Shown in pieces: positions 1 through 30,313 of a stretch of DNA of 40,048 bases. The position numbers and the translations under genes are program-made. The stretch is from Gammaproteobacteria bacterium (GTDB lineage Bacteria; Pseudomonadota; Gammaproteobacteria; SZUA-229). Position 1 is the first letter of the stretch. The number at the start of each line of letters is the position of its first letter. Location of the stretch: positions 1 to 40,048 of the forward strand of contig JAPHSS010000060.1 in the NCBI GenBank assembly GCA_026195255.1. Reading direction: 5' to 3'. Under the pieces are notes generated by a model. It worked only from the letters and a program-made list of their open reading frames with translations. It was not told the DNA's origin and did not search any database.

Positions 1-1071
1 GACTGCGGGCAGATCATCTGCCAGCTCCAGTTCAATGCGGGTGGATTGCCTTTTTAACATGCAGGTTAAGAATGAATCGACCATGTCCCTGATCAGGGTA
101 TTAATATCACAGGCTTCATCGGAACAATTATCCCTACGTGCGTAACTCAGCAAATCATTAATAATACGTGAGCAGCGTTTTGCTTCATCCGCAATAATAT
201 TCGAGTACTTGAGTTTTTTTTCATCGTCCATATCATTGCTGGCAAACAACTGCGAATAACCAAGTATATTGCCCAGTGGCGTATTCAGCTCATGGGCGAT
301 GCCCGCCGCCAGTTGCCCCATGGCCACCAGTTTTTCCCGGTTATACACCGAATCTAGCAGGCTTTGATAATCGGTAATATCCTGCAGGGTGATCACCGCA
401 TCAACTTCCACCGCATCCTTTGAGTAAAAGGCGATATTGATGGAAATAAAACGTTCAAGTCCGGCAATCTCAGTATGAATCACATAGTTTTCCACCGCAC
501 GTTTATATAAAAAGGCATCACGTAATGCATCCTTGTCGTTTGGTTCAAGGTCAAACACATCAAACAGCATTTTACCCAGCAGTGAGTCCGCTTCACATTT
601 AAACAGTTCTGCCGCCTGTGGATTTGTATTAACCACAATCAGATCATCGTCGACAGCAAGCAGGGCACCGGGCATACTACCCAGCAGTACATCCATTTTA
701 TTGCGCTCGGTGACGACGCGTTGCTGGCATTTCTCCACCATACTGAACATGGCTCTTAAATTCTGCATCATGGTGTTGTAATCGTGTACCAGCTTGCGCG
801 ACAGCGAACCACCGCAACTTGCTTCAACCAGATTGGTTAAAGTGCCTTCATGAGCATCCAGCACCGCTTCATGTAAACGTCTCATGGTTTTGCGATGCAT
901 CAGCAGAAAGGCCATAGACAATAGTAAAAGCAGCTGCATCACAATCAGCGCAGCGTGAACAAATGACCAGGAAAAGTTTTCTTGCCGTAAAAAAAAGATG
1001 GCTGTGGCCAAAGGGGCTAGCACAGCCATTAATATGAGAGTCTTTAGTAATAAATCGAAAAAACGAGGCAT
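1..1071 (-). CDS. Membrane sensor histidine kinase (PAS-HisKA), 3' end outside the window
   Basis: This is the N-terminal 357 codons of a sensor kinase that runs off the left edge of the window, read directly from the minus strand. Two membrane segments (about residues 7-28 and 35-57) form a hairpin with almost no periplasmic loop, so sensing is probably intramembrane or cytoplasmic. A PAS-like domain follows (about 125-235), then a HisKA dimerisation domain with the H-box GIAHELNTPLG, phospho-acceptor His260, and an LLSYAR motif. The ATP-binding domain must lie beyond position 1. It is the last gene of the porin/cytochrome block, 129 bases after the porin stop, and may control that block; this link is inferred from position only. 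The ATG start has no strong Shine-Dalgarno sequence. The family assignment is firm, the signal unknown. Confidence 0.88.
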   Translation of the reverse strand, partial: MPRFFDLLLKTLILMAVLAPLATAIFFLRQENFSWSFVHAALIVMQLLLLLSMAFLLMHRKTMRRLHEAVLDAHEGTLTNLVEASCGGSLSRKLVHDYNTMMQNLRAMFSMVEKCQQRVVTERNKMDVLLGSMPGALLAVDDDLIVVNTNPQAAELFKCEADSLLGKMLFDVFDLEPNDKDALRDAFLYKRAVENYVIHTEIAGLERFISINIAFYSKDAVEVDAVITLQDITDYQSLLDSVYNREKLVAMGQLAAGIAHELNTPLGNILGYSQLFASNDMDDEKKLKYSNIIADEAKRCSRIINDLLSYARRDNCSDEACDINTLIRDMVDSFLTCMLKRQSTRIELELADDLPAV

Positions 1072-1156
1072 TATGTATTGATAACCAGTCAACAGACAGA
1101 GATGGATAAATTATACTACAAATAACCCTTCCCTGAGCGCCAGTGGTAAAGCGAAC

Positions 1157-1178
1157 TATGCCTACGAAGGCAGGCATA
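1157..1178 (-). terminator. Hairpin after the porin gene (possible terminator or 3' stabiliser)
   Basis: A perfect 7-bp inverted repeat, TATGCCT and AGGCATA, with an 8-base spacer containing TTCG on the minus strand, lies about 23 bases after the porin stop. No T-tract follows, so it may protect the 3' end or pause polymerase and not be a full intrinsic terminator. Confidence 0.4.
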
Positions 1179-1200
1179 ATTCAAGCGGACACTATGCTTG

Positions 1201-2373
1201 TTAAAAGATCATCTGCAACCCAAGTGTGACCTGATCAAAGTCCTGCAATGCTGCATTAGTAGCGCTTTGTTCTGCAAACTCGTTTGAGGTGATATCAAGC
1301 GTTACTTTCAATTGCTGACCATTGATGTAGTAGTTAGCACCAATATTGTTGATGTCATGATCCGACAGGCCTGTGCCTGCACCGTATTCAATTTCAGTCA
1401 TCTTCGCATAGATTTGTAATCTACCCATACCAATCGCCTCCGGGAACATGTAACCCAGTTTTGCATAACTGCCTTCACGCTCTACCCAGGGTGTCATAGC
1501 TGGATCTGGATCAGTGGGGTAACCATCCACGCTGTAGTCAAACACCGCGGCCGAAGCAGTTAGCGTACCGAACGAATATGGGTATTCAAAAAACACATCC
1601 ACCGTGGTTGCTTCATAGTCTTTAGCGTCTGCACGGTTGCCGTAATCGCCATAAGCGATGTCTGCCTGTGAGTCAAATGCCGCACCAATGGTGAACACTT
1701 TCTGTGTTCCAAGGTAAGTTCCGCGGTAACCATAGGAGTATTCAGGGTCCAGCAAACTCACATGCACTCGACCGGTGATACGCGGTGAGGATTCAACTAC
1801 GTTATCACCTTCACGGCCATCGGTAACAGCCACACGGTATTGAAATTTTGCATCCGCAAGATTACCCCACACGGCCACACCCGTATCACGGGTGCCGCCA
1901 TAAGGAGAATAGGCAAGTACACCACGATCCAGGGTTAAAGGTTCAAGACAGGCTTCGAGATTTTCACGGCTGAAGGTGTTTTTAAAGCGACCCAGAATAA
2001 AACGGTAACTGTCACTTGGGTCAATGGTCAGATAGGCATCGCGATAAAAAACTGAATTGTCATCTGAGCCGCCTTTGCTGTCATTACCTGCCTCAAGTTG
2101 CGCATAAAACCCAATAAGGTCATTGTACTGACCAAGCAGGGTTATCCGGTTACGACGTAGAAATGTGTCATTAACGTCTCCGTTATCCGTTGCCGATGTG
2201 TAATCACGACTCTGATTCCACATCTGTACGGCATAATTAAGTTCCATATAACCTTCGTCACCCACCTGAAAACTCGGGCCGGCAATGGCTGCCTGCTGCA
2301 CACCAACGCCACTCAGCGCAAGTGCAAGGGCCGCGAATAACGGGCGTTTTTTAATATAACGATTATCTTTCAT
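1201..2373 (-). CDS. OprO/OprP-like outer-membrane beta-barrel porin
   Basis: The product is a 390-residue outer-membrane protein. An N-terminal signal peptide (basic start, hydrophobic stretch about 12-31, cleavage probably after AIA) is followed by alternating beta-strand sequence of the phosphate-selective porin O/P type, for example LRRNRITLLGQYNDLIGFYAQ and FRDAYLTIDP-like segments. It ends in LQMIF, a terminal aromatic residue typical of BAM substrates. A strong Shine-Dalgarno (AGGGGAG) precedes the ATG. It lies 21 bases after the three-heme cytochrome gene, clearly in the same transcript. The pairing of a porin with periplasmic cytochromes and a rhodanese lipoprotein suggests a barrel that passes electrons or a sulfur/oxyanion substrate across the outer membrane, as proposed for ExtI of Geobacter; whether it is a true ExtI orthologue cannot be judged here. 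Confidence 0.85.
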   Translation of the reverse strand: MKDNRYIKKRPLFAALALALSGVGVQQAAIAGPSFQVGDEGYMELNYAVQMWNQSRDYTSATDNGDVNDTFLRRNRITLLGQYNDLIGFYAQLEAGNDSKGGSDDNSVFYRDAYLTIDPSDSYRFILGRFKNTFSRENLEACLEPLTLDRGVLAYSPYGGTRDTGVAVWGNLADAKFQYRVAVTDGREGDNVVESSPRITGRVHVSLLDPEYSYGYRGTYLGTQKVFTIGAAFDSQADIAYGDYGNRADAKDYEATTVDVFFEYPYSFGTLTASAAVFDYSVDGYPTDPDPAMTPWVEREGSYAKLGYMFPEAIGMGRLQIYAKMTEIEYGAGTGLSDHDINNIGANYYINGQQLKVTLDITSNEFAEQSATNAALQDFDQVTLGLQMIF

Positions 2374-2394
2374 TTATGATCTCCCCTATTGGCT

Positions 2395-2877
2395 TTATTT
2401 GTATTTATCAAGCAGCGTCTGAGCATCGCCATCGGTATGGCAGGTCGCACAGGTTTCTTCTGACTTCACACGTGGATCAGCAATAAGATCCTTGTGAGCC
2501 ATGCTCTTCAACATCAAACGCTCATTACCCTTATGGCAACCAACGCAGGAATGGTTAACTGATGTATGTTGCTGGTGCCAACTGGCATCAGACGGTTTAT
2601 CGGCACGCTTGCCGCTATGACATTTGAAACAGGAAGAGGCACCAAGGCCGCAGGCATTGGCAACCGGAATCGGCGAGTAGTTCACGACTTTTTCATGCAC
2701 ACCCTCAAGCACTTCACTGCTCCAGCTGCCATCATCCGCCAGCGGTGTACCATTTACGGTGAGATAACCCGCATAACTTGCCCATACCACCGCCATAACC
2801 GGCACCAGCAGTAATGGCAAACCAACTTTAAGCATGGATTTTTTCCATTTGCCGAGTTTATTACTTATCTGTTTCAT
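2395..2877 (-). CDS. Membrane-anchored three-heme c-type cytochrome
   Basis: The 160-residue product has an uncleaved-looking N-terminal membrane segment (about 18-38) and three covalent haem-binding motifs: CFKCH (83-87), CVGCH (111-115) and CATCH (143-147). Extra histidines between them could be distal ligands. It should be anchored in the inner membrane with the haem domain in the periplasm, passing electrons between the membrane pool and other periplasmic or outer-membrane carriers. Its ATG overlaps the stop of the preceding small gene by four bases (ATGA), and a GGAGG lies five bases upstream, so the two are translationally coupled. No close named family is recognised; a NapC/NrfH relationship is not evident because only three motifs are present and their spacing differs. 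Confidence 0.88.
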   Translation of the reverse strand: MKQISNKLGKWKKSMLKVGLPLLLVPVMAVVWASYAGYLTVNGTPLADDGSWSSEVLEGVHEKVVNYSPIPVANACGLGASSCFKCHSGKRADKPSDASWHQQHTSVNHSCVGCHKGNERLMLKSMAHKDLIADPRVKSEETCATCHTDGDAQTLLDKYK

Positions 2878-3125
2878 TTTTCCTCCGAATCTCTCTTTTG
2901 AGAAGCCTCTAATTGTTGTGAACGTTGAGCGGAACTATTTTTATTTGATACCTGTCGTGTCTGTGGCCTCTCACTCTGCATGATGTCCTTCTCACTTAAC
3001 CCTCTGGCACACATGCAAACAGGTCCATTTTTGAACTTTAATTTTGGTGAGCGGTCTTTATCACTGTCAGCAGCCTGCAATGATGTATTTGCCAGCAACA
3101 ATCCCACAATGATTAAAATACGCAT
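2874..3125 (-). CDS. Small secreted protein with a CMC motif, unknown function
   Basis: An 83-residue protein with a clear signal peptide (MRILIIVGLLLANTSLQAA, cleavage after residue 19). The mature part is about 64 residues, hydrophilic, and has one conserved-looking segment, GPVCMCARGLSEKDI, with two cysteines separated by one residue. The C-terminal half is low in complexity and rich in Q, S, K and E. GAGG stands eight bases before the ATG, and its stop overlaps the cytochrome start downstream, so it is a real member of the operon. The CxC pair could bind a metal, carry a persulfide or be a redox disulfide; none of this is shown. I do not recognise a family. Confidence 0.72.
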   Translation of the reverse strand: MRILIIVGLLLANTSLQAADSDKDRSPKLKFKNGPVCMCARGLSEKDIMQSERPQTRQVSNKNSSAQRSQQLEASQKRDSEEK

Positions 3126-3260
3126 GACTCATCCTCAGGTAGTACATGGTTTATACAAAGCACTTCTTGTGCCAACCTGATATATTTAATAATTTCAATA
3201 AGTTAGGGAAACATAGTGATTTCACGCCATTGCATCACCTGATGCACATTGCATATCACT

Positions 3261-4520
3261 TCAATTTGCAACGCGACCAATCGCAAGCTCGGCAGCTACA
3301 AACTCATATTCAACCGCTTTTGACTCACGAATCGACTGCAACAGCAATGACAGGGTCTCTGGCTGCAGTTTATCGCGGTTATGCGGCAGGTAATCCTCAA
3401 AGGTGCGCACGTAGTGTTGACGTGGTGCCACATGAATACGCAATCGAAGCTGAGTGTAGTTCGCGATATTTTGCAATTTGCCATGCAGAGATACCGACTC
3501 ACCTGCGGCCAGGCGCTGATCGAAAATTTCCTCCGTCAGTGCCAGATTCACACGCCAGGCAATAGTATGGCGTGCCAGCTCACGCACCCCGCCTTCTGCA
3601 TCTATCACTTCAAGATGTAAGACAATTTCCGGCACCATATAGGTGGGGAAATGATGCCCGGCACCACTATTGGTAAGCGTAGCCTGTAACTGATAACTTC
3701 CGTCTGCATCGGGCTGTGCCGCCAGTTCGACGCTCAATGCGGATCGCGTCATTTCTTTATCGTGGATACCGCGCCAGACATGCTGGCGTTGTGGCATATG
3801 GCAGGACTGGCAGTGTTGACCCTGTTGAGCAAAATCCGTGGCCAGCCATTCTTCATAGGTGTTCTCCCTGAGTTTGCCATTAATACGCGGCCCATCTGCT
3901 TTAAACTGATGACAGTTAGCGCAGAAACGGCTATCGGAATACGCTTCATGCTCTGCAAAACCACCATGCACATTACGATCTGCATCCGGCTTGCTTGCCA
4001 GCGGGCCGTGCCTCACATGGGCACGCACATGACAGGCAGCACATACCAGGCCCTGCTGGTGAAGGTTTTCAGGAATATAATCCGGAGGTGCACTGCGGCT
4101 GTTCGACCAGCCCCGCTGCTGTGAAAACAGTGCCAGCTGTTCTGTCATCGGTGCATGACATCGCAAACAGGATTGTGCCGTTTTCATATCAACTAATTGC
4201 AATTGCCAGCCAATGCCGGGGCCCATGGTGTGACTGTGCAAACTGCTGCGCCACTGCGCAAACTGATCTGCATGGCACTCGCCACAGGACGCTGGATCAA
4301 GTGATGCTTCGAGAGCAGAAAAAGAAGCCGGGGGTTTACCCTGCGCAGGAATGGGGTAAGTCCAGTGATTCTCGAGAAATTCGTCCACCGAGGCTTTGTT
4401 GCTAAAGAGTTGATCCAGTTTAAAGCCATTACCGATAACTAATACCAGCGCAATAACTACAGCAATACCGATAGCTATCAATATCAGTCGAGCTGGCAGA
4501 CTGCTTAATTTTAATTTCAC
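3261..4520 (-). CDS. Membrane-anchored five-heme c-type cytochrome (c554-like)
   Basis: I place the start at a GTG preceded by GGAG with eight bases of spacing; a TTG eight codons earlier is open but has no ribosome binding site. The 419-residue product has a membrane anchor (about 8-30), then five CxxCH motifs: CGECH (79), CLRCH (118), CAACH (160), CANCH (200) and CQSCH (237). Motif spacing and phrases such as ADQFAQWRSSLHSHTM resemble the multihaem cytochrome c554 superfamily. The C-terminal third has no haem motif and contains TNSGAGHHFPTYMVPEI, a segment common after the haems in these proteins, probably a beta-rich domain. It is predicted to be a periplasmic electron carrier or reductase/oxidase in the porin operon. 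The exact substrate is unknown. Confidence 0.88.
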   Translation of the reverse strand: MKLKLSSLPARLILIAIGIAVVIALVLVIGNGFKLDQLFSNKASVDEFLENHWTYPIPAQGKPPASFSALEASLDPASCGECHADQFAQWRSSLHSHTMGPGIGWQLQLVDMKTAQSCLRCHAPMTEQLALFSQQRGWSNSRSAPPDYIPENLHQQGLVCAACHVRAHVRHGPLASKPDADRNVHGGFAEHEAYSDSRFCANCHQFKADGPRINGKLRENTYEEWLATDFAQQGQHCQSCHMPQRQHVWRGIHDKEMTRSALSVELAAQPDADGSYQLQATLTNSGAGHHFPTYMVPEIVLHLEVIDAEGGVRELARHTIAWRVNLALTEEIFDQRLAAGESVSLHGKLQNIANYTQLRLRIHVAPRQHYVRTFEDYLPHNRDKLQPETLSLLLQSIRESKAVEYEFVAAELAIGRVAN

Positions 4521-4668
4521 TACGAACACTCCAGACTGGAACAACTAACGAAACAGCACGCAAAAAACAATATGCTGGTCAAATAAAACTAACAGATAAC
4601 CAACCGACGATAAATAAAAATACTTTCCGAGTCAGGCTGGACTGTACGACGTGTTGTTAAAAAAGAAA

Positions 4669-4705
4669 ACGCGAATGAACGCGAACAACGCAAATAGACG
4701 CAAAT
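4669..4705. repeat. Short degenerate tandem array of ACGC(G/A)AA units
   Basis: Four near-identical units, reading roughly ACGCGAATGA, ACGCGAACA, ACGCAAATAG and ACGCAAATAA, follow one another just upstream of the five-heme cytochrome gene and are flanked by A- and T-rich sequence. It is a simple-sequence array that could expand or contract by slippage. No function is evident. Confidence 0.6.
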
Positions 4706-4773
4706 AATTTTTTATATATGCATACTAATTGACTAAAGACAAACGACTAATAACTAACGACTGTTTTCTCGCA

Positions 4774-4900
4774 TCTCGCGGAATACCGCACGTCCTGTGC
4801 ATAACCGCTACCGGCTCCTGCCTCTCGCGGAATACCGCACGTCCTGTGCATAACCGCTACCGGCTCCTGCCTCTCGCGGAATACCGCACGTCCTGTGCAT
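4774..4900. repeat. 49-bp tandem repeat, about 2.6 copies
   Basis: Three copies begin at 4774, 4823 and 4872 with an exact 49-base period and no visible mismatch; the last is cut short at about 4900. Each unit is GC-rich, unlike its surroundings, and holds two small dyads: CGG-AATA-CCG and GCAC-GTCCT-GTGC. The array lies between the terminator of the rhodanese lipoprotein gene and the five-heme cytochrome gene. An open frame can be read through it on the minus strand, but it is periodic and has no coding support. The unit is probably a mobile or dispersed intergenic repeat. Confidence 0.92.
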
Positions 4901-4930
4901 AAAAAAGGCAGCTCGTTTTTGAGCTGCCTT
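4901..4930 (-). terminator. Rho-independent terminator of the rhodanese lipoprotein gene
   Basis: A perfect 10-bp stem, AAGGCAGCTC pairing with GAGCTGCCTT across a six-base loop, is followed on the minus strand by a run of six T. It lies about 60 bases after the lipoprotein stop, so it should end, or partly attenuate, transcription before the cytochrome and porin genes. Confidence 0.9.
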
Positions 4931-4990
4931 GCAGGAGTCAATCTATTTACCACTAATTATTAAAAAATAATCAGCGACATGACCACAGGT

Positions 4991-6496
4991 TTAACCACCA
5001 CAGGGGTTAGCCGGAATAGTGGCACCACCGCCTGAACCAGTAGAACTGCTGGTTGAAGTAGAACCAGCCTTATAGGCGCGGTCAGTTGTCACAACCTCGT
5101 CTGAACTAGAGGCATATGCATCAGTAATCACTGGCACATCAATATAAGCTTCGACATTATATGTCAGGTTATCGGTCAGTGCCGCTGTTTGCCAGGGTGA
5201 GGTGGCGGGCAGATTTAATCCACCTTCATGGTTTGTGACACTGGCCATTTGTAGCCACTCGATCATCGCACCGTCATAGAAACGTGTTGGATACCCCAGA
5301 ATCAAACCACTGGCTGTGCCGGTTATCATCGCGCGGTAGGTCGTACGACAGTAGGTATAAACTGTTTTACCCGCTGTATAACCAAGATCAGATACCATGG
5401 TTGACAGTGTCGCCTTGTCCAGATAACGGTAAGAGGCATCAGCAGAAGTTACACTAGCAGAATCATTAAGATCTTCAGTCGCATCATCTGACACCAGCAA
5501 AGTGCTGTAATTGAGATTTTTCGCACCTTTGACAGTACCATTCATGGCTGTTTTACAGCCTACAGTCTCTGTAGTGTCTCCATCGGTATCAATATCATCA
5601 ACGTCAACGCAAGTTGCATTAGTGCCACCTGTTGAGAGAAGATCTCCAGCCCATTCACCGGGTGAACGTGCATCCCAGACAAAGGAATCGCTAACTTCAC
5701 CACGCGCCACTGCCATCATCTCTCCCAATGTCGCCTGCAACACGGTGTTATCGGCATATAGATCCTTAACTGACACTGTGCCGCCGGTGGGTGCAGGGCC
5801 ACTGTTACTTTCACCCAGATAGGTTCCACGATCACCAGCAATTACGCTAGCGTGAGTTGCACCACCATTTAACATCGCCAGATGCGTAGCATCAGCACCC
5901 CAGTAACGAAACAGGTAATGCGCACGGCCCATTAACATATTATTGAAGCCACCACCCGTACCCATGGCAAACACAATCATGTCGCTGGTTGGGTCAATAT
6001 CATAGGCTGCCAGTAGAGCGTCCATTTTCTCGCCACTCAGCACAACGGAAACCGTTTCAGTGACACCGTTATCACGGGTTTCAACCCAGGTTGAGCTGCC
6101 TAATGAATAACTGCGTACACCAGCGGCTGGTTTGAAGTATTTACATACACCCGTGCCACTCGCATCTTCATCAACACAGGATGCATCTACAGTATCAGTC
6201 AGTCCACCATCGGATACCTGCAAAATAATCAGCTCACCGCTAATAGCCGCAGGTTTGTTGGTTGCCCAGTCATCAATCCAGCTGGTCAGGGTTGCGCCAG
6301 TAATCAGGCCGGACTCATTATCGTTATAATCACTTGCCGAAGTGGTTGCCAGTGAAGCCGCAGTGGCTTGCTTGTAGATGGTCGATGAAGACAGAGTATC
6401 TTCAGAACTCGAACAACCAGATATCAAGAGCGCTGTTCCACCAATAAGAGCCAATAGAGCCTCTCTAGTGTATTTTACTTTATTAATTTTACTCAT
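4991..6496 (-). CDS. Tandem-rhodanese lipoprotein (sulfurtransferase-like)
   Basis: The 501-residue precursor has a type II signal peptide with lipobox LISGC (lipidated Cys28), so it is anchored to a membrane, most likely the outer membrane. Two rhodanese-like halves follow. The first (about 60-235) contains IVFAMGTGGGFNNMLMGRAHYLFRYWGA, where the catalytic cysteine loop has lost its Cys. The second (about 270-425) has the hallmark DARSPGEW, then GAKNLNYS and a catalytic loop with Cys383 in YCRTTYRA. This dead-plus-active order is that of tandem thiosulfate sulfurtransferases. A Ser/Thr/Gly-rich tail ends in NPCGG. AGGAGG precedes the ATG. Its place before multihaem cytochromes and a porin recalls ExtH of Geobacter. 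A role in extracellular or periplasmic sulfur (or selenium/tellurium) transfer is inferred. Confidence 0.85.
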   Translation of the reverse strand: MSKINKVKYTREALLALIGGTALLISGCSSSEDTLSSSTIYKQATAASLATTSASDYNDNESGLITGATLTSWIDDWATNKPAAISGELIILQVSDGGLTDTVDASCVDEDASGTGVCKYFKPAAGVRSYSLGSSTWVETRDNGVTETVSVVLSGEKMDALLAAYDIDPTSDMIVFAMGTGGGFNNMLMGRAHYLFRYWGADATHLAMLNGGATHASVIAGDRGTYLGESNSGPAPTGGTVSVKDLYADNTVLQATLGEMMAVARGEVSDSFVWDARSPGEWAGDLLSTGGTNATCVDVDDIDTDGDTTETVGCKTAMNGTVKGAKNLNYSTLLVSDDATEDLNDSASVTSADASYRYLDKATLSTMVSDLGYTAGKTVYTYCRTTYRAMITGTASGLILGYPTRFYDGAMIEWLQMASVTNHEGGLNLPATSPWQTAALTDNLTYNVEAYIDVPVITDAYASSSDEVVTTDRAYKAGSTSTSSSTGSGGGATIPANPCGG

Positions 6497-6635
6497 AATT
6501 CTCCTCCTAGGATCTTCAGCTTAGAGTTCGGCACAGCTGCTACCAGTCACCCATCAGCCCATTTTCGTTATCATTTCATTGTTACTGTTAATAATTCAGC
6601 ACTGAGATGATTCCCCCCTCATGCTGTCCTCTGCT

Positions 6636-6824
6636 TCAAACAGGTTTTATTACAATGGGCACCTGCTCATTGCTTAAAGCATCCAGCATGACAGCCGGGG
6701 CTGCATCAATGGATGTTTTATCAAAACCCTGACCAATTTCTCCCAGGCCTTTTTCAAGAAGCTTCTCCAGCTCCGGGTCACCCTCTCCGGTGATAAAAAA
6801 ATGAACTTTGTTTTTATTACTCAT
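6636..6824 (-). CDS. 62-residue hypothetical protein of the sulfur-relay operon
   Basis: A short acidic protein with no cysteine, signal peptide or membrane segment. It starts MSNKNKVHFFITGEGDPELEKLLEKGLGEIG, with a predicted strand and then an amphipathic helix, and ends in PIVIKPV. Its start overlaps the stop of the preceding DsrE-like gene by four bases (ATGA), which argues strongly that it is translated as part of the operon. I do not recognise a family. Co-translation with DsrE-like proteins suggests it may be a partner subunit. It is the last gene before a 139-base gap leading to the lipoprotein gene. Confidence 0.65.
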   Translation of the reverse strand: MSNKNKVHFFITGEGDPELEKLLEKGLGEIGQGFDKTSIDAAPAVMLDALSNEQVPIVIKPV

Positions 6825-7075
6825 ACGACAAACACCACATCAGAATTAACCACCATTTGTGCAAACTCCGCCGCATTGCTGTCATCAACATCAATCACCG
6901 GCACATCGGCAAAGTCCAGTGACTCCAGTTGCAGGCTGACTTCATCTGCATCCCGATCCATTTCACCCACAACCGCCACTTTAATAACATCATCCAGCAG
7001 GGTTAGGCCGGCTGCCATGCGCAGTGCCTCTATCTTTTTATTGCGGGCAATCATTAATACATTTTTAATACTCAT
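6821..7075 (-). CDS. DsrE-like small sulfur-relay protein
   Basis: An 84-residue soluble protein with an alternating strand-helix pattern: IKNVLMIARNKKIEALRMAAGL, then VIKVAVVGEMD and a final SDVVFVV strand. This matches the shape of DsrE/DsrF-type proteins, which shuttle persulfide sulfur in the cytoplasm, but it has no cysteine at all, so it cannot carry persulfide by itself. It may be a structural or regulatory subunit for the adjacent DsrE-like protein. It lies 11 bases after that gene and overlaps the next by four. The family call is moderate and the role inferred. Confidence 0.65.
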   Translation of the reverse strand: MSIKNVLMIARNKKIEALRMAAGLTLLDDVIKVAVVGEMDRDADEVSLQLESLDFADVPVIDVDDSNAAEFAQMVVNSDVVFVV

Positions 7076-7086
7076 TGTGCCCTCCG

Positions 7087-7398
7087 TTAAAAGACCAGTA
7101 CGCGTTCAGAATTATGCACCAGCTCGGCGTTCTGATACTGACCGCCAACCACCACGAACGCTTCAATCTTCGTAAGATCAACATCCTTACAGTAGCGCTC
7201 TACAGAGTGCTCGCAGATAAAGGCGCTATGTGCTGCTTCATTTTCTGCCATGTCCAGAAACTCATGATCTTTAATCATGTTTACGCCGTCGTCTGTTAAA
7301 AAGACCTTTACGCTCCACTTGCGATTCAGCGCTTCACGCATCACCTGGTATGCGGTTTTTGCATGCCTGTAATCGGTTACTACAACACCCAGAATCAT
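7087..7398 (-). CDS. DsrE-like sulfur-relay protein with candidate active cysteine
   Basis: A 103-residue protein of the DsrE-like fold: MILGVVVTDYRHAKTAYQVM (strand and helix), WSVKVFLTDDGVNMI, and the C-terminal strand KIEAFVVVGGQ. In this fold the active-site Cys follows the third strand region; here AFICEHSVERYC offers Cys82 and a second Cys90. It should bind sulfane sulfur in the cytoplasm and exchange it with a TusA partner, whose gene ends two bases upstream. The close packing with a TusA gene and the YeeE transporter gene supports a role in handling imported sulfur. Whether it forms a multimer with its Cys-less neighbour is not known. Confidence 0.72.
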   Translation of the reverse strand: MILGVVVTDYRHAKTAYQVMREALNRKWSVKVFLTDDGVNMIKDHEFLDMAENEAAHSAFICEHSVERYCKDVDLTKIEAFVVVGGQYQNAELVHNSERVLVF

Positions 7399-7400
7399 AT

Positions 7401-7652
7401 TTACCCCTTACGGATTTTCCATGTGGTTGCACCATTGCCTTCTTCGCGTTCAAAGATTTCATCACCTTCGGTTTCGCACATAGCAATAATAGATTCGCCG
7501 GATGAGGGGTTATCAAAGATCAGTGACAGCTCGTCGCCACTTTGCAGTTTTTGCAGCGCTTTTTTGGTGTACATTTGTGGATGTGGACAGACGTAGCCAC
7601 TTACATCCAGCTGGTACTGGCCATCGCTGATCTTGTCGAATTTAATTGCCAT
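7401..7652 (-). CDS. TusA-family sulfur carrier
   Basis: An 83-residue TusA/SirA/YedF-type protein. The signature CPHP (Cys22) lies in LDVSGYVCPHPQMYTKKALQKL, at the start of the first helix as in TusA, and is followed by the usual GDEL strand and a segment of the SIIAMCETEGDEI type. The cysteine carries a persulfide that is passed to or from partner proteins. A good ribosome binding site (AGGAGATATTAG) precedes the ATG. It lies 92 bases after the YeeE transporter gene and two bases before a DsrE-like gene. YeeE-TusA pairs are known for thiosulfate uptake, so this protein is the probable cytoplasmic acceptor. Confidence 0.88.
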   Translation of the reverse strand: MAIKFDKISDGQYQLDVSGYVCPHPQMYTKKALQKLQSGDELSLIFDNPSSGESIIAMCETEGDEIFEREEGNGATTWKIRKG

Positions 7653-7744
7653 CTAATATCTCCTGTATTCTTAACTTTTTTATTCAGTTTCAAGCGGCCA
7701 ATGTTCATACAACGGGTGCTGTAACATCGACTGCTGTTAATTAT

Positions 7745-9190
7745 TTAAATATCAAACTCATCACCAGCCGACTTTCTGTTCAGCCAGACATTGAACGCCT
7801 TAACACCCAGCAGGCCACCGATTAACATACCCGCAAGGAAAATCCAGCCGGTCAGGTCGCCATTGGTGACCGCAGCAAAGAAGGCCCCCACGTTACAACC
7901 CATGCCAAGACGTGCACCTATGCCCATTAAGGCACCACCGACGATTGCAAACACGGCGGTTTCTACACTCGGTATTTTCCATTTAAATTCACGGCGTGAC
8001 AGCGAGAGGATGGCCGCGCCCACGATAATGCCTACCGACATCAACAGTGGCGCATTAATCAGCGGATTGGGAATACCATTTTGCAGGCCGAAGAAAATAT
8101 TGTCGGTTACGTCTCTGCCAAACAGGCTCATTACCCAGCCACCCAACTGTGCTTCCTGCGTGGTGATATACCAGTAACCCGGGTCGAATACCGTTTCCTG
8201 AATAGACAGGCCTTCGCTGTAACCCATTTTCATGAGCAGCTCGCCAAAGTTGAAAATTTCATAATGCTCGCGCAACGCGCCGGTTGCCCACATCTGCAGG
8301 CCGGCGAATATACCCAGACCTAAACCGGCAATCGCGGTGTTTTTAGAGGAGGTAATCATGCCCCAGATACCGCGCATCTCATCACCATAACTTAGAGACT
8401 CCAGCTTGCTGCGACGGATATATCCTTTACGGTACGTGCTCATATACAGAATCACCAGAATAACCAGGCTCGGCAGAATAGCGTTCAATAACACGTTACC
8501 CACAAACACATCGATCCATACATTACCTGTGCCCAGCATATCGCCCACGGTACCACCCGACAGGTTCCATACGTAACCCGCTGTGAACAGGTCAAACCAG
8601 CCATCGGTAACAGTTAATACTTCCGGCATGCCTTTATCCAGCGCCGACTCCGCCCAGCTCGCTGGCGCAAGGTTGTTCGACCAGCTGCCCAGATCGGTAA
8701 AAAGAGCCATAGAGAATGAAATACTCAGCAATACCAGCATCGACCCCATATTGCCTTCGCCGGTTTTATACAATGACCCGGATGCACAGCCGCCGGTAAA
8801 AATCATGCCGAAGCCGAATATCAGGCCACCTGCAATAATGTGCCAGCCCAACGGATGCGGATGAAAGGTGCTGTAACCACTGACGGTAACCAGGCCCGCA
8901 GTAATCGAGAACAGTGCGGTGGCTATCATCACACCCACTGCCATACGTGGCACTTTGATTGCAAATAGATCGCGGATCGCCGATGCCATGCAGAAGCGGC
9001 CGTACTGCAACAATACGCCATAAGCCACACCAAACCACACATACACCAGCAGATAAATCCACCGCGTATCATTAGCCAGTAACCCCAGCGATAAAATTGC
9101 GGTCAAGGCGACTAATGCCATCGCTTTGTATCCGCCCTTATGTGCCAGTAGGCCGGGGTTGCTCATTACCTGTGTTGAATCAGTAGCCAT
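7745..9190 (-). CDS. YeeE/YedE (TsuA-like) sulfur-compound transporter
   Basis: A 481-residue polytopic inner-membrane protein with many hydrophobic segments and a twofold repeat of the YeeE/YedE (sulf_transp) type. The hallmark conserved cysteines are present: Cys67 in YGRFCMAS, Cys135 in TGGCASGSLYK and Cys432 in GMGCNVGAF. In TsuA/YeeE these line a path through which thiosulfate is moved by transient S-S contacts. A central loop region of about 120 residues is longer than in the shortest members. It is flanked by two TusA-type genes. A purine-rich GAGAGAG precedes the ATG. Thiosulfate is the best guess for substrate; selenium compounds are possible, since YedE/YedF relatives occur in selenium metabolism. 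Confidence 0.9.
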   Translation of the reverse strand: MATDSTQVMSNPGLLAHKGGYKAMALVALTAILSLGLLANDTRWIYLLVYVWFGVAYGVLLQYGRFCMASAIRDLFAIKVPRMAVGVMIATALFSITAGLVTVSGYSTFHPHPLGWHIIAGGLIFGFGMIFTGGCASGSLYKTGEGNMGSMLVLLSISFSMALFTDLGSWSNNLAPASWAESALDKGMPEVLTVTDGWFDLFTAGYVWNLSGGTVGDMLGTGNVWIDVFVGNVLLNAILPSLVILVILYMSTYRKGYIRRSKLESLSYGDEMRGIWGMITSSKNTAIAGLGLGIFAGLQMWATGALREHYEIFNFGELLMKMGYSEGLSIQETVFDPGYWYITTQEAQLGGWVMSLFGRDVTDNIFFGLQNGIPNPLINAPLLMSVGIIVGAAILSLSRREFKWKIPSVETAVFAIVGGALMGIGARLGMGCNVGAFFAAVTNGDLTGWIFLAGMLIGGLLGVKAFNVWLNRKSAGDEFDI

Positions 9191-9389
9191 AATTATCGTT
9201 TACTCTCTCGCTCAGAGGTTCAAATTTTTAACATATTAAGGAAACACTGAATTAATCAGGTTTCTACAGCATAAGGATGTGCCATCATTTTCAATGATTG
9301 TTAAGTCATTAAAAATGCAAAACAAATCAGTAACGTATCTTGATTTGCTTTAGCTCTGATAACCCAAAGATGAATTAAACAGAGCCTCC

Positions 9390-9758
9390 CTAAATTTCGC
9401 GGCGTACATAAATACACCAGTTATCCTTTCCCTGAACCGTGGCCAGATGCACGCCCTCATAAATGTCCATCATCGACGGCATAGTCTCAACCACCGAAAG
9501 GTTATCGGTCACCACTTCAACCACCACACCTCTGTCAACGTCATTAAGCGCCTTCAGGGTCAGTAGCTGGGGCCTTGGGCATCCCTCGCTCTCGCACTCC
9601 ACCCGGCAACCAATCTGCACCAGACCGTAACCTGGCAATTCAACCGATTCATTAATACGGGTTACACTGCGATGACGCTGCACTGATGTATCCACGTCTT
9701 TCCAGTGAAATAGATTGCCTAAAAACACAGTCATCCTTTTAATTGTTTTTCCTAACAT
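9390..9758 (-). CDS. TusA-like protein with N-terminal extension
   Basis: The 122-residue protein has a TusA-like core at about 40-122. Its signature is CPRP (Cys60), in SEGCPRPQLLTLKALNDV, followed by GVVVEVVTDNLSVVETMPSMM. Two further cysteines just before it (Cys51 and Cys55, in GCRVECESEGC) are unusual and make a CxxxCxxxxC cluster. About 40 residues at the N terminus have no counterpart in ordinary TusA and contain a short hydrophobic patch (MTVFLGNLFHW) that might touch the membrane. GGAGGG precedes the ATG. It is the first gene of the block, 199 bases before the transporter gene. It is probably a sulfur carrier specific to this system. Confidence 0.78.
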   Translation of the reverse strand: MLGKTIKRMTVFLGNLFHWKDVDTSVQRHRSVTRINESVELPGYGLVQIGCRVECESEGCPRPQLLTLKALNDVDRGVVVEVVTDNLSVVETMPSMMDIYEGVHLATVQGKDNWCIYVRREI

Positions 9759-16028: not shown

Positions 16029-17072
16029 ATGTCTCAACAACGCAAAGCTGTCGCCCTTATTTCTGGCGGCCTCGATTCATTACTCGCCGCACGTGTCATG
16101 CTTGAACAGGGCATACATGTAGAAGGTATAAATTTCTTTACCGGTTTTTGCGTTGAAGGCCATACCCATGCTATTCGCAAACAGGACAAGTCTAAACCTA
16201 AACGGAACAATGCATTATGGTCGGCTGAACAACTTGGCATCAAATTACACATAATTGATATCGTAGAAGAGTATAAAGACGTACTCATCAACCCTAAACA
16301 CGGTTATGGCAAAAACATGAACCCCTGCCTCGACTGTAAAATCTTTATGGTCAACAAGGCTAAACAATGGGCTGAAGAAAACGATTTCGATTTTATAATT
16401 ACCGGCGAAGTTATCGGTCAGCGACCGATGTCTCAACGTAAAGACACTATGCCTGTTGTGTCACGTGAGTCTGGTGCAGATGATAGATTATTACGCCCCC
16501 TGTGCGCACAAAATTTACCAGAGACACTGCCTGAAAAAGAGGGCTGGGTTAAACGTGACGAATTATTCGGTTTTTCCGGACGTAACCGTAAACCCCAAAT
16601 GGCGCTTGCCAAAAAATACGGCTTTGAAGATTATGCAAAACCCGCTGGTGGTTGCTGCTTTTTAACGGATGAAAGTTACTCTGCAAAACTGGTCGATTTA
16701 TGGGATGCCCGTGGCACTCGCGAATATGAAATGGACGATATTATGTTACTAAAAGTAGGCCGGCATATTCGACCAGCGCCTCACTATAAATTAATTATCG
16801 GTCGTGAAGACGGCGAGAATAAATTTCTGCAGGGTTATAAAAATAATTTCATTACTTTTAAAACCATGGATTGCCCGGGCCCTTTAACATTACTTGATGG
16901 TGTCGCTACAGATAAAGATCTAGAACTTGCAGCACAAATTTCAGCGCGTTTCTCTCAGGGCAGAGATAAAGACAGTGTCACAATTGAAGCGCGTCGCACT
17001 AATGGTGACACAACAACATTGGTTGTAAAACCGATGCCCGCATCTGAAATTAATCCAGAGTGGTATGTTTAA
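16029..17072 (+). CDS. PP-loop tRNA thiouridylase-like enzyme
   Basis: The 347-residue protein begins with a PP-loop ATP pyrophosphatase motif (SGGLDSLLAA, residues 12-21) as in MnmA, ThiI and related tRNA thiolases. A CxxC pair in NPCLDCKIF (Cys100, Cys103) and a GGCC pair (Cys209, Cys210) are in the places of the catalytic cysteines of MnmA. The C-terminal part (about 240-347), including KVGRHIRPAPHYKLIIGREDGENKFL, resembles an NFACT-R-type RNA-binding segment rather than the MnmA barrel. It is therefore a distinct family from true MnmA and ThiI. It should adenylate a tRNA uridine and replace its oxygen with sulfur. Its stop overlaps a TusA gene, the likely sulfur donor. Confidence 0.82.
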   Translation: MSQQRKAVALISGGLDSLLAARVMLEQGIHVEGINFFTGFCVEGHTHAIRKQDKSKPKRNNALWSAEQLGIKLHIIDIVEEYKDVLINPKHGYGKNMNPCLDCKIFMVNKAKQWAEENDFDFIITGEVIGQRPMSQRKDTMPVVSRESGADDRLLRPLCAQNLPETLPEKEGWVKRDELFGFSGRNRKPQMALAKKYGFEDYAKPAGGCCFLTDESYSAKLVDLWDARGTREYEMDDIMLLKVGRHIRPAPHYKLIIGREDGENKFLQGYKNNFITFKTMDCPGPLTLLDGVATDKDLELAAQISARFSQGRDKDSVTIEARRTNGDTTTLVVKPMPASEINPEWYV

Positions 17073-29869: not shown

Positions 29870-30313
29870 TTAACACTGCTCCCAGGGTAAACCGCGATAT
29901 CGCCAGCCACCCACTGTACTCCTGTGATAATTAGAATCACGGTCACCCTCAAAGCCTTCTGTGACATGACATACATTGTGAAAACCTGCTTCTAATAATT
30001 TGTTGCCTGCATCTATAGAGCGCTTACCACTTCTACATATTAGAATAATTGGCGGAGAACTTTCGCCCTGATCGCAAATACCACCTAACATCAGTTGGCG
30101 TATTTCTTTTTCAAAATCAGGATTTACGCACCAGTCAGGCTCATCTATCCACGGAACATGCAATGCACCTTTAGGGTGTCCAACGAATAAAAATTCCATA
30201 TTAGAACGAATGTCTATCAATAGCGCACTTGAAACCTGCTGCAATATATCTGAGGTTTCCTGCGGGGTCAGATGGTTAAGACTTTCTAGTTCAAGCTGCT
30301 TTAATGAATTCAT
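29870..30313 (-). CDS. Single-domain rhodanese
   Basis: A 147-residue soluble protein with one rhodanese domain: LTPQETSDILQQ, LLIDIRSNMEFLFVGHPKGALHVPW (CH2A-type motif) and the active-site loop ICRSGKRS with Cys93, followed by AGNKLLEAGFHNVCHVTEGFEGD. The cysteine loop of six residues is that of sulfurtransferases and not of the longer phosphatase-like members. It ends in WRYRGLPWEQC, a tail seen in rhodaneses associated with sulfur oxidisers and others. It should carry or transfer persulfide sulfur; the partner is unknown. Confidence 0.92.
   Translation of the reverse strand: MNSLKQLELESLNHLTPQETSDILQQVSSALLIDIRSNMEFLFVGHPKGALHVPWIDEPDWCVNPDFEKEIRQLMLGGICDQGESSPPIILICRSGKRSIDAGNKLLEAGFHNVCHVTEGFEGDRDSNYHRSTVGGWRYRGLPWEQC

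Follow-up and report, generated by a model that had tools for sequence, protein, structure and literature searches.

How neutrophilic sulfur oxidisers move insoluble or extracellular sulfur across two membranes to the cytoplasmic Dsr or sHdr pathways is, to our knowledge, a largely unanswered question. It is raised by a gene block in a gammaproteobacterial assembly (GCA_026195255.1, lineage SZUA-229), of which one whole contig of 40,048 bases (JAPHSS010000060.1), hereafter the window, was analysed. From position 9758 down to position 1, twelve genes follow one another on the minus strand, the last of which, encoding a histidine kinase, is cut at the contig end. The first six encode a YeeE-TusA-DsrE sulfur-relay set (the YTD half), and the next five a rhodanese lipoprotein, a porin, two multihaem cytochromes and a small CxC protein that recall the Ext proteins of Geobacter (the Ext half). 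A first-pass annotation had listed these eleven genes and the kinase, all of which are indeed present, and had proposed a membrane-spanning system that takes up sulfur or another chalcogen outside, moves electrons through the cytochromes and passes sulfane sulfur inward to TusA and DsrE. That observation is confirmed here, and its interpretation is partly supported.

We put the probability that the locus encodes a single trans-envelope sulfur-acquisition machine of sulfur oxidisers without SoxCD at roughly one half. The strongest points are the fixed gene order, the cysteines at each layer of the envelope and the SoxC-negative, mostly Dsr-positive setting of the carriers; the weakest are the substrate, the direction in which electrons flow and the joint action of the two halves. 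One conserved block supplies a candidate protein for every layer from the surface inward, and the outer-membrane step that sulfur oxidation still lacks has a good candidate in this locus. The combination consists of known modules newly joined, is widespread and can be tested. No published description of the full combination (YTD, Ext-like unit and kinase) was found in the PubMed Central (PMC) literature searched by title and abstract; the statement of the first-pass annotation that no such system had been described thus stands for the whole and falls for the parts, since the YTD cluster has been published and sulfur import involving a porin has been proposed for Desulfurivibrio dismutans (PMC12142623).

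Conserved gene order

A search for the rhodanese in 96 related genomes gave matches at E<=1e-3 in 14, ten of them strong (window included). The nine other strong genomes keep the gene order of the window as far as their contigs reach, with the exception of one (G079), in which transposase-like frames and a contig end follow the five-haem gene (locus L025), the CxC, three-haem and porin genes open a different contig (L077), with the kinase and regulator found 8 kb away. Scanning of genome contigs with a rhodanese alignment yielded 45 loci, including two remote ones (L072 and L073), and the hosts comprise Thiobacillus, Thioalkalivibrio, Thiogranum, Thiohalomonas, Gallionella, Burkholderiales, other metagenome-assembled genomes (MAGs) and the cultured strain Thiohalobacter thiocyanaticus Hrh1, whose locus (L036) has the full set of 13 genes. 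Gene order was then compared over 47 related loci besides the window (43 near loci of the scan plus L025, L027, L074 and L075), with gene profiles built from the first ten genomes.

All 11 larger genes are collinear in 33 of the 47 loci, nine further loci are truncated by contig ends and collinear over the readable part, and five deviate. In two of the latter (L057 and L064) the YTD half is inverted relative to the Ext half; L071 has two weak yeeE-like frames and no tusA match, L074 has no match to the long tusA-like gene (tusAL), and the fifth is L025. When the small genes are added by best match, all 13 genes are collinear in 26 of the 47 loci. A lack of conserved linkage had been named beforehand as a finding that would refute the proposal, and the linkage proved to be conserved; the gene order also rules out that the genes are chance neighbours. 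The kinase follows the block as annotated, and in relatives it is itself followed by an NtrC-type response regulator (present in 41/47 loci), which in the window would lie beyond the contig end. The conserved unit therefore comprises thirteen genes.

In a sample of 274 genomes of the class, six scored over the ExtI cut-off, and exactly these six were also matched by the rhodanese profile (E<=1e-10). Only two of the five genomes searched from the genus of the window carry the locus, which is thus patchy within the genus. A plasmid-borne unit was also considered and rejected: among 72,556 plasmid records, the tblastn matches were all partial, with one of 23% for the rhodanese (E limit 1e-3) and, for the porin (E limit 1e-10), two of 30%, both in Methylosinus trichosporium OB3b.

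The counts of invariant residues given below exclude length outliers, both remote loci and seven duplicates of named loci. The alignments used in later searches comprised, in addition to the window proteins, 39 of 48 listed rhodaneses, 40 of 44 porins, 31 of 46 five-haem cytochromes, 19 of 41 CxC proteins and 20 of 44 three-haem cytochromes. Two loci (L067 and L070) stem from one MAG, and L070 was omitted from the searches of 42 genomes; L071 and L076 apparently belong to one contig, and L076 is outside the 47. In one otherwise complete locus (L069), the rhodanese and porin genes are split into several frames, by decay or sequencing error.

Cytoplasmic half

The main gene labels are backed by matches to Pfam and NCBIfam models, and all gene coordinates refer to the minus strand. 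To judge from its sequence, the series yeeE-tusA-dsrE-chp2-chp1 of the window is the published YTD (yeeE-tusA-dsrEFH type II) cluster: a yedE/yeeE gene, tusA, a dsrE-like gene and two to three conserved hypothetical genes stand in one block, and a sulfur-carrying cysteine is found in TusA and DsrE and none in the DsrH-like partner. TusA (7401..7652; Pfam TusA, E 2e-18) has C22 in a CPHP motif (42/42), and the DsrE-like protein (7087..7398; Pfam DsrE, E 6e-5) has C62 (40/40). The next gene (6821..7075; 45/47 related loci) encodes a small DsrF-like protein whose position fits Chp2 of the YTD cluster; it is followed, with a 4-base overlap at its stop, by the gene for a DsrH-like or Chp1-like protein of 62 residues (6636..6824; 41/47 related loci). 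Both proteins lack cysteine in the window and, like the CxC protein of the Ext half, gave no Pfam or NCBIfam match at the limits used. The annotation of two DsrE-like proteins accordingly holds by Pfam for the first, whereas the second has neither a cysteine nor a model match.

The transporter (7745..9190; Pfam Sulf_transp, E 2e-47) is a TsuA/SoxT-like YeeE/YedE membrane protein of 481 residues, compared with 339 in PDB 6leo chain A, and it is below the TsuA equivalog cut-off (110.8 versus 400 bits). Nevertheless, its C67, C135 and C432, invariant in 41/41 aligned sequences, align with positions 22, 91 and 293 of 6leo chain A, counted along the alignment; we take the cysteines at these positions to have a role in TsuA. 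In front of yeeE lies the gene for the long TusA-like protein (9390..9758; 122 residues; Pfam TusA, E 5e-7) with C60 in a CPxP motif (37/37 aligned).

An association of the YTD cluster with sulfur disproportionation has been reported (Umezawa et al. 2020, cited in PMC9751629; PMC12998232), and the cluster is also treated, together with DsrEFH type II, in PMC13047784 and PMC13293266. Among the strains of one of these reports, the complete cluster is confined to Desulfobacterota and Nitrospirota (PMC12998232), whereas the carriers described here are mostly Sox- and Dsr-bearing Gamma- and Betaproteobacteria, in which the extra long TusA stands in front and the cluster is joined to an outer-membrane unit. 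DsrEFH type II has been reported from 985 genomes of 20 phyla, with Pseudomonadota forming subtype 1 (PMC13293266). For the three small proteins of the cluster, a DsrEFH-like double heterotrimer with a cysteine-free DsrH-like part has been modelled (PMC13047784). In vitro, TusA reversibly loads Cys67 of DsrE in the cable-bacterial DsrEFH type II, and transfer onward to DsrC is one-way (PMC13293266). In the same work, thiosulfate failed to load any of the three proteins examined, so it is disfavoured as the carried species, and the substrate was suggested to be set by the uptake system (PMC13293266). Sulfur import has been demonstrated for the YeeE-like SoxT1A (PMC11582611).

Outer-membrane half

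The rhodanese (4991..6496) is a tandem-domain lipoprotein with a lipobox cysteine, C28, an active-loop cysteine of the second domain, C383 (YCRTTYRAM), and a C-terminus PANPCGG that contains C499. Both C28 and C383 are found in 42/42 sequences, although a crude lipobox pattern caught only 29 of 46. A cysteine lies within the last five residues in 46/46 complete C-termini (L063 and L067, in which the contig ends inside the gene, are omitted), 38 of which end in CGG, and the stretch before it consists to 72% of G, S, T, A, D and P. A C-terminal Cys-Gly-Gly on a Gly/Ser-rich stretch recalls the carrier arm of SoxY (the NCBIfam model is named SoxY_true_GGCGG), but here the tail sits on a rhodanese lipoprotein, and the SoxY models of NCBIfam gave no match among the 40 rhodaneses scanned.

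The NCBIfam ExtH model matches all 40 rhodaneses scanned (E<=1e-3), with a score in the window below the cut-off (94.4 versus 200 bits). The porin (1201..2373) is well above the ExtI cut-off (353.4 versus 150 bits), and all 41 porins scanned match; its sole cysteine, C142, is present in 42/42. The five-haem cytochrome (3261..4544), which has a TTG start, a hydrophobic N-terminus and five CXXCH motifs, is matched by the ExtKL model below its cut-off (52.4 versus 250 bits), and the model matches 32/32 members scanned. On the basis of these models, the likeness of the porin, rhodanese and pentahaem cytochrome to ExtI, ExtH and ExtKL is real, and the Geobacter ExtHIJKL make-up recognised in the first-pass annotation is borne out.

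In Geobacter, the ext cluster encodes the rhodanese lipoprotein ExtH, the porin ExtI, the small ExtJ and the pentahaem selenoprotein ExtKL, with extMNOPQS beyond (PMC5877670, PMC6148476). A different rhodanese-like protein was reported for 10 of 18 extHIJKL regions, and ExtH-like proteins have been tied to sulfur metabolism (PMC6148476). The block described here shares the rhodanese lipoprotein, the ExtI porin, the pentahaem cytochrome and a small exported protein, but it differs in gene order, in the scores of rhodanese and cytochrome below the equivalog cut-offs, in the missing selenocysteine, and in having an additional three-haem cytochrome and no extM-S. For most ext relatives a LysR regulator is reported (PMC6148476), whereas a histidine kinase/NtrC pair is found here. 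An outer-membrane barrel with multihaem cytochromes is also common to MtrCAB and other porin-cytochrome conduits; the barrel here, however, is of the ExtI/OprP type, and a large outer-surface multihaem lipoprotein cytochrome is absent from the block, whose only cytochromes are the five-haem and three-haem proteins. The locus also suggests that the Ext relatives of Geobacter may have a role on the sulfur side.

Cytochromes, CxC protein and kinase

The haem counts of five and three given in the first-pass annotation are correct. The best solved relative of the five-haem family profile is the multihaem cytochrome c selenoprotein MccSep (PDB 9wt8; E 4e-11, over two weak stretches), which aligns over the haem motifs and the AGHxxP loop. 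Sec325 of MccSep, mutated to Ala by the depositors, aligns with M303 of the window, and the family has M in 33, L in 8 and V in 1 of 42 sequences; thus, neither selenocysteine nor cysteine occurs at this position. A lipobox-like N-terminus was found in 22 of 44 five-haem relatives (crude pattern). The three-haem cytochrome (2395..2877), with a hydrophobic N-terminus and three CXXCH motifs, has a free cysteine, C76, and spare histidines H101, H104 and H128 in 38/38.

The small CxC protein (2874..3125) has a signal-like N-terminus and the cysteines C37 and C39 (37/37; CxC in 43/43). Its gene, annotated as following both cytochromes, in fact lies between the five-haem and three-haem genes. The protein occupies an ExtJ-like place, and no ExtJ match was obtained among 20 members scanned, the presence of an ExtJ model in the library being unchecked. 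The PAS sensor histidine kinase (1..1092; HisKA and PAS) has C323, C328 and C344 in 40/40, and the location of these three cysteines after the phospho-acceptor histidine suggests sensing of thiols or persulfides. Each layer of the envelope hence has one or more proteins with an invariant cysteine, which is a pattern and not proof of a relay.

Genomes that carry the locus

The carrier set comprised 42 genomes, mostly MAGs, which were searched with curated model cut-offs. DsrA was over the cut-off in 35, SoxB in 37, SoxY in 36 and SoxC in one (five at E<=1e-20). In the sample of 274 genomes of the class, for which lineage was not controlled, the numbers were 87 for DsrA, 112 for SoxB and 40 for SoxC, and the six carriers in that sample had SoxB in 6/6, DsrA in 4/6 and SoxC in 0/6. 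The sulfur setting expected from the first-pass annotation is therefore what the carriers, mostly with Sox and Dsr genes, display. From the known pathways, they would mostly be sulfur oxidisers that need sulfane sulfur brought into the cytoplasm.

Discussion

If the locus works as a single machine, the ExtI-type porin, with its in-chain cysteine, and the rhodanese lipoprotein would capture zero-valent or sulfane sulfur at the outer membrane, either from outside or at its periplasmic side. The captured species would be S8 or polysulfide rather than thiosulfate. The sulfur might be held as a persulfide on C383 of the rhodanese and moved by the C-terminal CGG tail in the manner of a SoxY-like carrier arm, while the five-haem and three-haem cytochromes and the CxC protein would exchange electrons for the making and breaking of S-S bonds during the hand-over. 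At the inner membrane, YeeE would pass sulfane sulfur to TusA and from there to a DsrEFH-type complex, composed of DsrE with its cysteine and two partners that are cysteine-free in the window. This complex would deliver the sulfur to reverse Dsr, or to an sHdr-like pathway in some of the carriers. The PAS histidine kinase with its three invariant cysteines, together with the NtrC-type regulator, might switch the genes on. The most specific form of this proposal, an outer-membrane uptake system of neutrophilic sulfur oxidisers in which the porin, together with a rhodanese bearing a swinging CGG tail, strips sulfur atoms from extracellular S0 or polysulfide, a persulfide relay runs via YeeE to TusA-DsrEFH and the cytochromes handle the electrons, is put forward tentatively, at somewhat less than even odds. 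The residues that could be tested individually are C383 and C499 of the rhodanese, C142 of the porin, and C67, C135 and C432 of YeeE.

Part of the proposed import mechanism is already in print for a species of Desulfobacterota. For Desulfurivibrio dismutans, which disproportionates sulfur, it was proposed that extracellular polysulfide is brought in across the outer membrane with the aid of a porin and of lipoprotein sulfurtransferases; the porin, RS05170, is co-localised with exported sulfurtransferases and YeeE/YedE (PMC12142623). Going by its published description, this set is alike in combining a porin, periplasmic or lipoprotein sulfurtransferases and YeeE/YedE, and it differs in that the description mentions no cytochromes, kinase or DsrE set alongside (PMC12142623).

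It should be noted that several observations weigh against a single inward-working machine. The two halves can be separate transcripts, as suggested by the inversion in L057 and L064 and by the hairpin and repeats in the window. Between the halves, the distance matrices of three proteins from each are correlated in all nine pairs (r 0.41-0.84; n=33 entries having all six proteins), 0 of 500 permutations being as high in each pair, and all 15 protein pairs have r 0.41-0.86; such correlated divergence is, however, also expected from vertical descent of two neighbours. The porin might conduct nothing but solutes, and in vitro the transfer between TusA and DsrEFH can run both ways (PMC13293266). 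Seven carriers have no DsrA match (5/42 plus G079 and G288), and four of the seven also lack an HdrB-like match; in the other three (G079, G288 and G346) such a match is under the curated cut-off. By eye, the gene order is HdrC-HdrB-LbpA-DsrE3-like in G079 and HdrC-HdrB-LbpA-like in G288. In addition, 16 further genomes of the class have a DsrF-like match (34.6-45.7 bits, compared with 44.7-132.8 in carriers) and neither a match to the rhodanese profile nor ExtI over its cut-off. Six of these non-carrier loci were inspected, five of them frame by frame, and contain DsrE/DsrF-like pairs; in three of the six a rhodanese with a weak match (16-26 bits) is nearby, and the surrounding 1.5 kb held no other gene of the Ext half.

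A second explanation is rather unlikely but the likeliest of the alternatives considered: YeeE-TusA-DsrEFH might import periplasmic sulfane sulfur released by a truncated Sox system, while the Ext half serves as a periplasm-to-outside electron outlet or a device against sulfur stress, the two cooperating modules being neighbours by virtue of a shared regulator. The available descriptions of YTD in other bacteria do not mention Ext (PMC12998232, PMC13293266), the Geobacter ext cluster is reported without YTD genes (PMC5877670), and besides the mutual inversion in two loci, a terminator-like site separates the rhodanese gene of the window from the cytochrome genes. This hairpin (4905..4930; 4930-4905 as read on the minus strand) has a 10-pair stem and a T run 3' of the rhodanese gene and is the longest-stemmed such site of the region, which has 10, a number not above that of shuffled sequences (mean 8.9). 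Next to it lies a 49-bp tandem repeat of 2.6 perfect copies (4774..4902), and because the gap holds both, the window copy may be two transcripts. Yet the gap between the rhodanese and five-haem genes, 446 bp in the window, is short in most relatives (median 61 bp over 45 loci), the order is collinear in 33/47 loci, and the rhodanese of the Ext half would act on sulfur of the kind that the YTD half handles.

Could the Ext half instead act as in Geobacter, sending electrons outward to an extracellular acceptor such as S0, selenite, tellurite or a metal, with the YTD half dealing with the returning sulfur? The score of the porin over the ExtI equivalog cut-off fits this idea, as do the impaired selenite and tellurite reduction of Geobacter extI mutants (PMC5877670) and the partial Fe(III) and Mn(IV) reduction retained by a strain with extHIJKL as its sole conduit cluster (PMC6148476). 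Against it, Met, Leu or Val takes the place of the MccSep selenocysteine, the carriers mostly bear sulfur-oxidation genes, and no cytochrome b, Rieske protein or multihaem cytochrome is among the seven families (labelled by eye) that recur in the flanks of four or more loci. Outward electron flow is thus improbable. Selenium or tellurium reduction as the main role is made less likely by the lost selenocysteine position, and the link to selenite and tellurite drawn in the first-pass annotation is weakened further because the quinone-linked extM-S of Geobacter (PMC5877670) are outside the conserved block. Export, finally, would have excess sulfane sulfur sent out and laid down as extracellular sulfur, with the cytochromes taking electrons from polysulfide oxidation. 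The carriers are mostly SoxB-positive and SoxC-negative, a make-up known to yield zero-valent sulfur. The reversibility of the TusA-DsrEFH transfer would also allow this direction, but the one-way transfer to DsrC in vitro (PMC13293266) and the importer activity of the YeeE-like TsuA and SoxT1A (PMC11582611) argue against export, which is very unlikely.

Flanking regions and remote loci

A wider conserved neighbourhood was not supported, none of the seven flank families having a clear sulfur function; the commonest are secretin-like and GspE-like genes downstream, in 10 and 8 loci (labels by eye). The DsrE/DsrF-like pairs without Ext genes (L085, L087, L088, L089, L090 and L091) in some cases adjoin other rhodaneses. 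Elsewhere in the window, a ThiI-like ATP-binding protein (16029-17072) and a single-domain rhodanese (29870-30313) were labelled by eye.

The two remote loci, L072:5396-10633 from a MAG named only as a bacterium and L073:5366-11273 from a MAG of Krumholzibacteriota, contain a row of genes, labelled partly by eye, for TusA, a YedE-type transporter, two rhodanese-like lipoproteins, an OprP-type porin and an SseA-like rhodanese. In both, one separate rhodanese-like lipoprotein, again labelled by eye, ends in GGCGG, and in L073 an Hdr-like set comes after the row. The make-up of these loci resembles the porin set described for Desulfurivibrio dismutans (PMC12142623).

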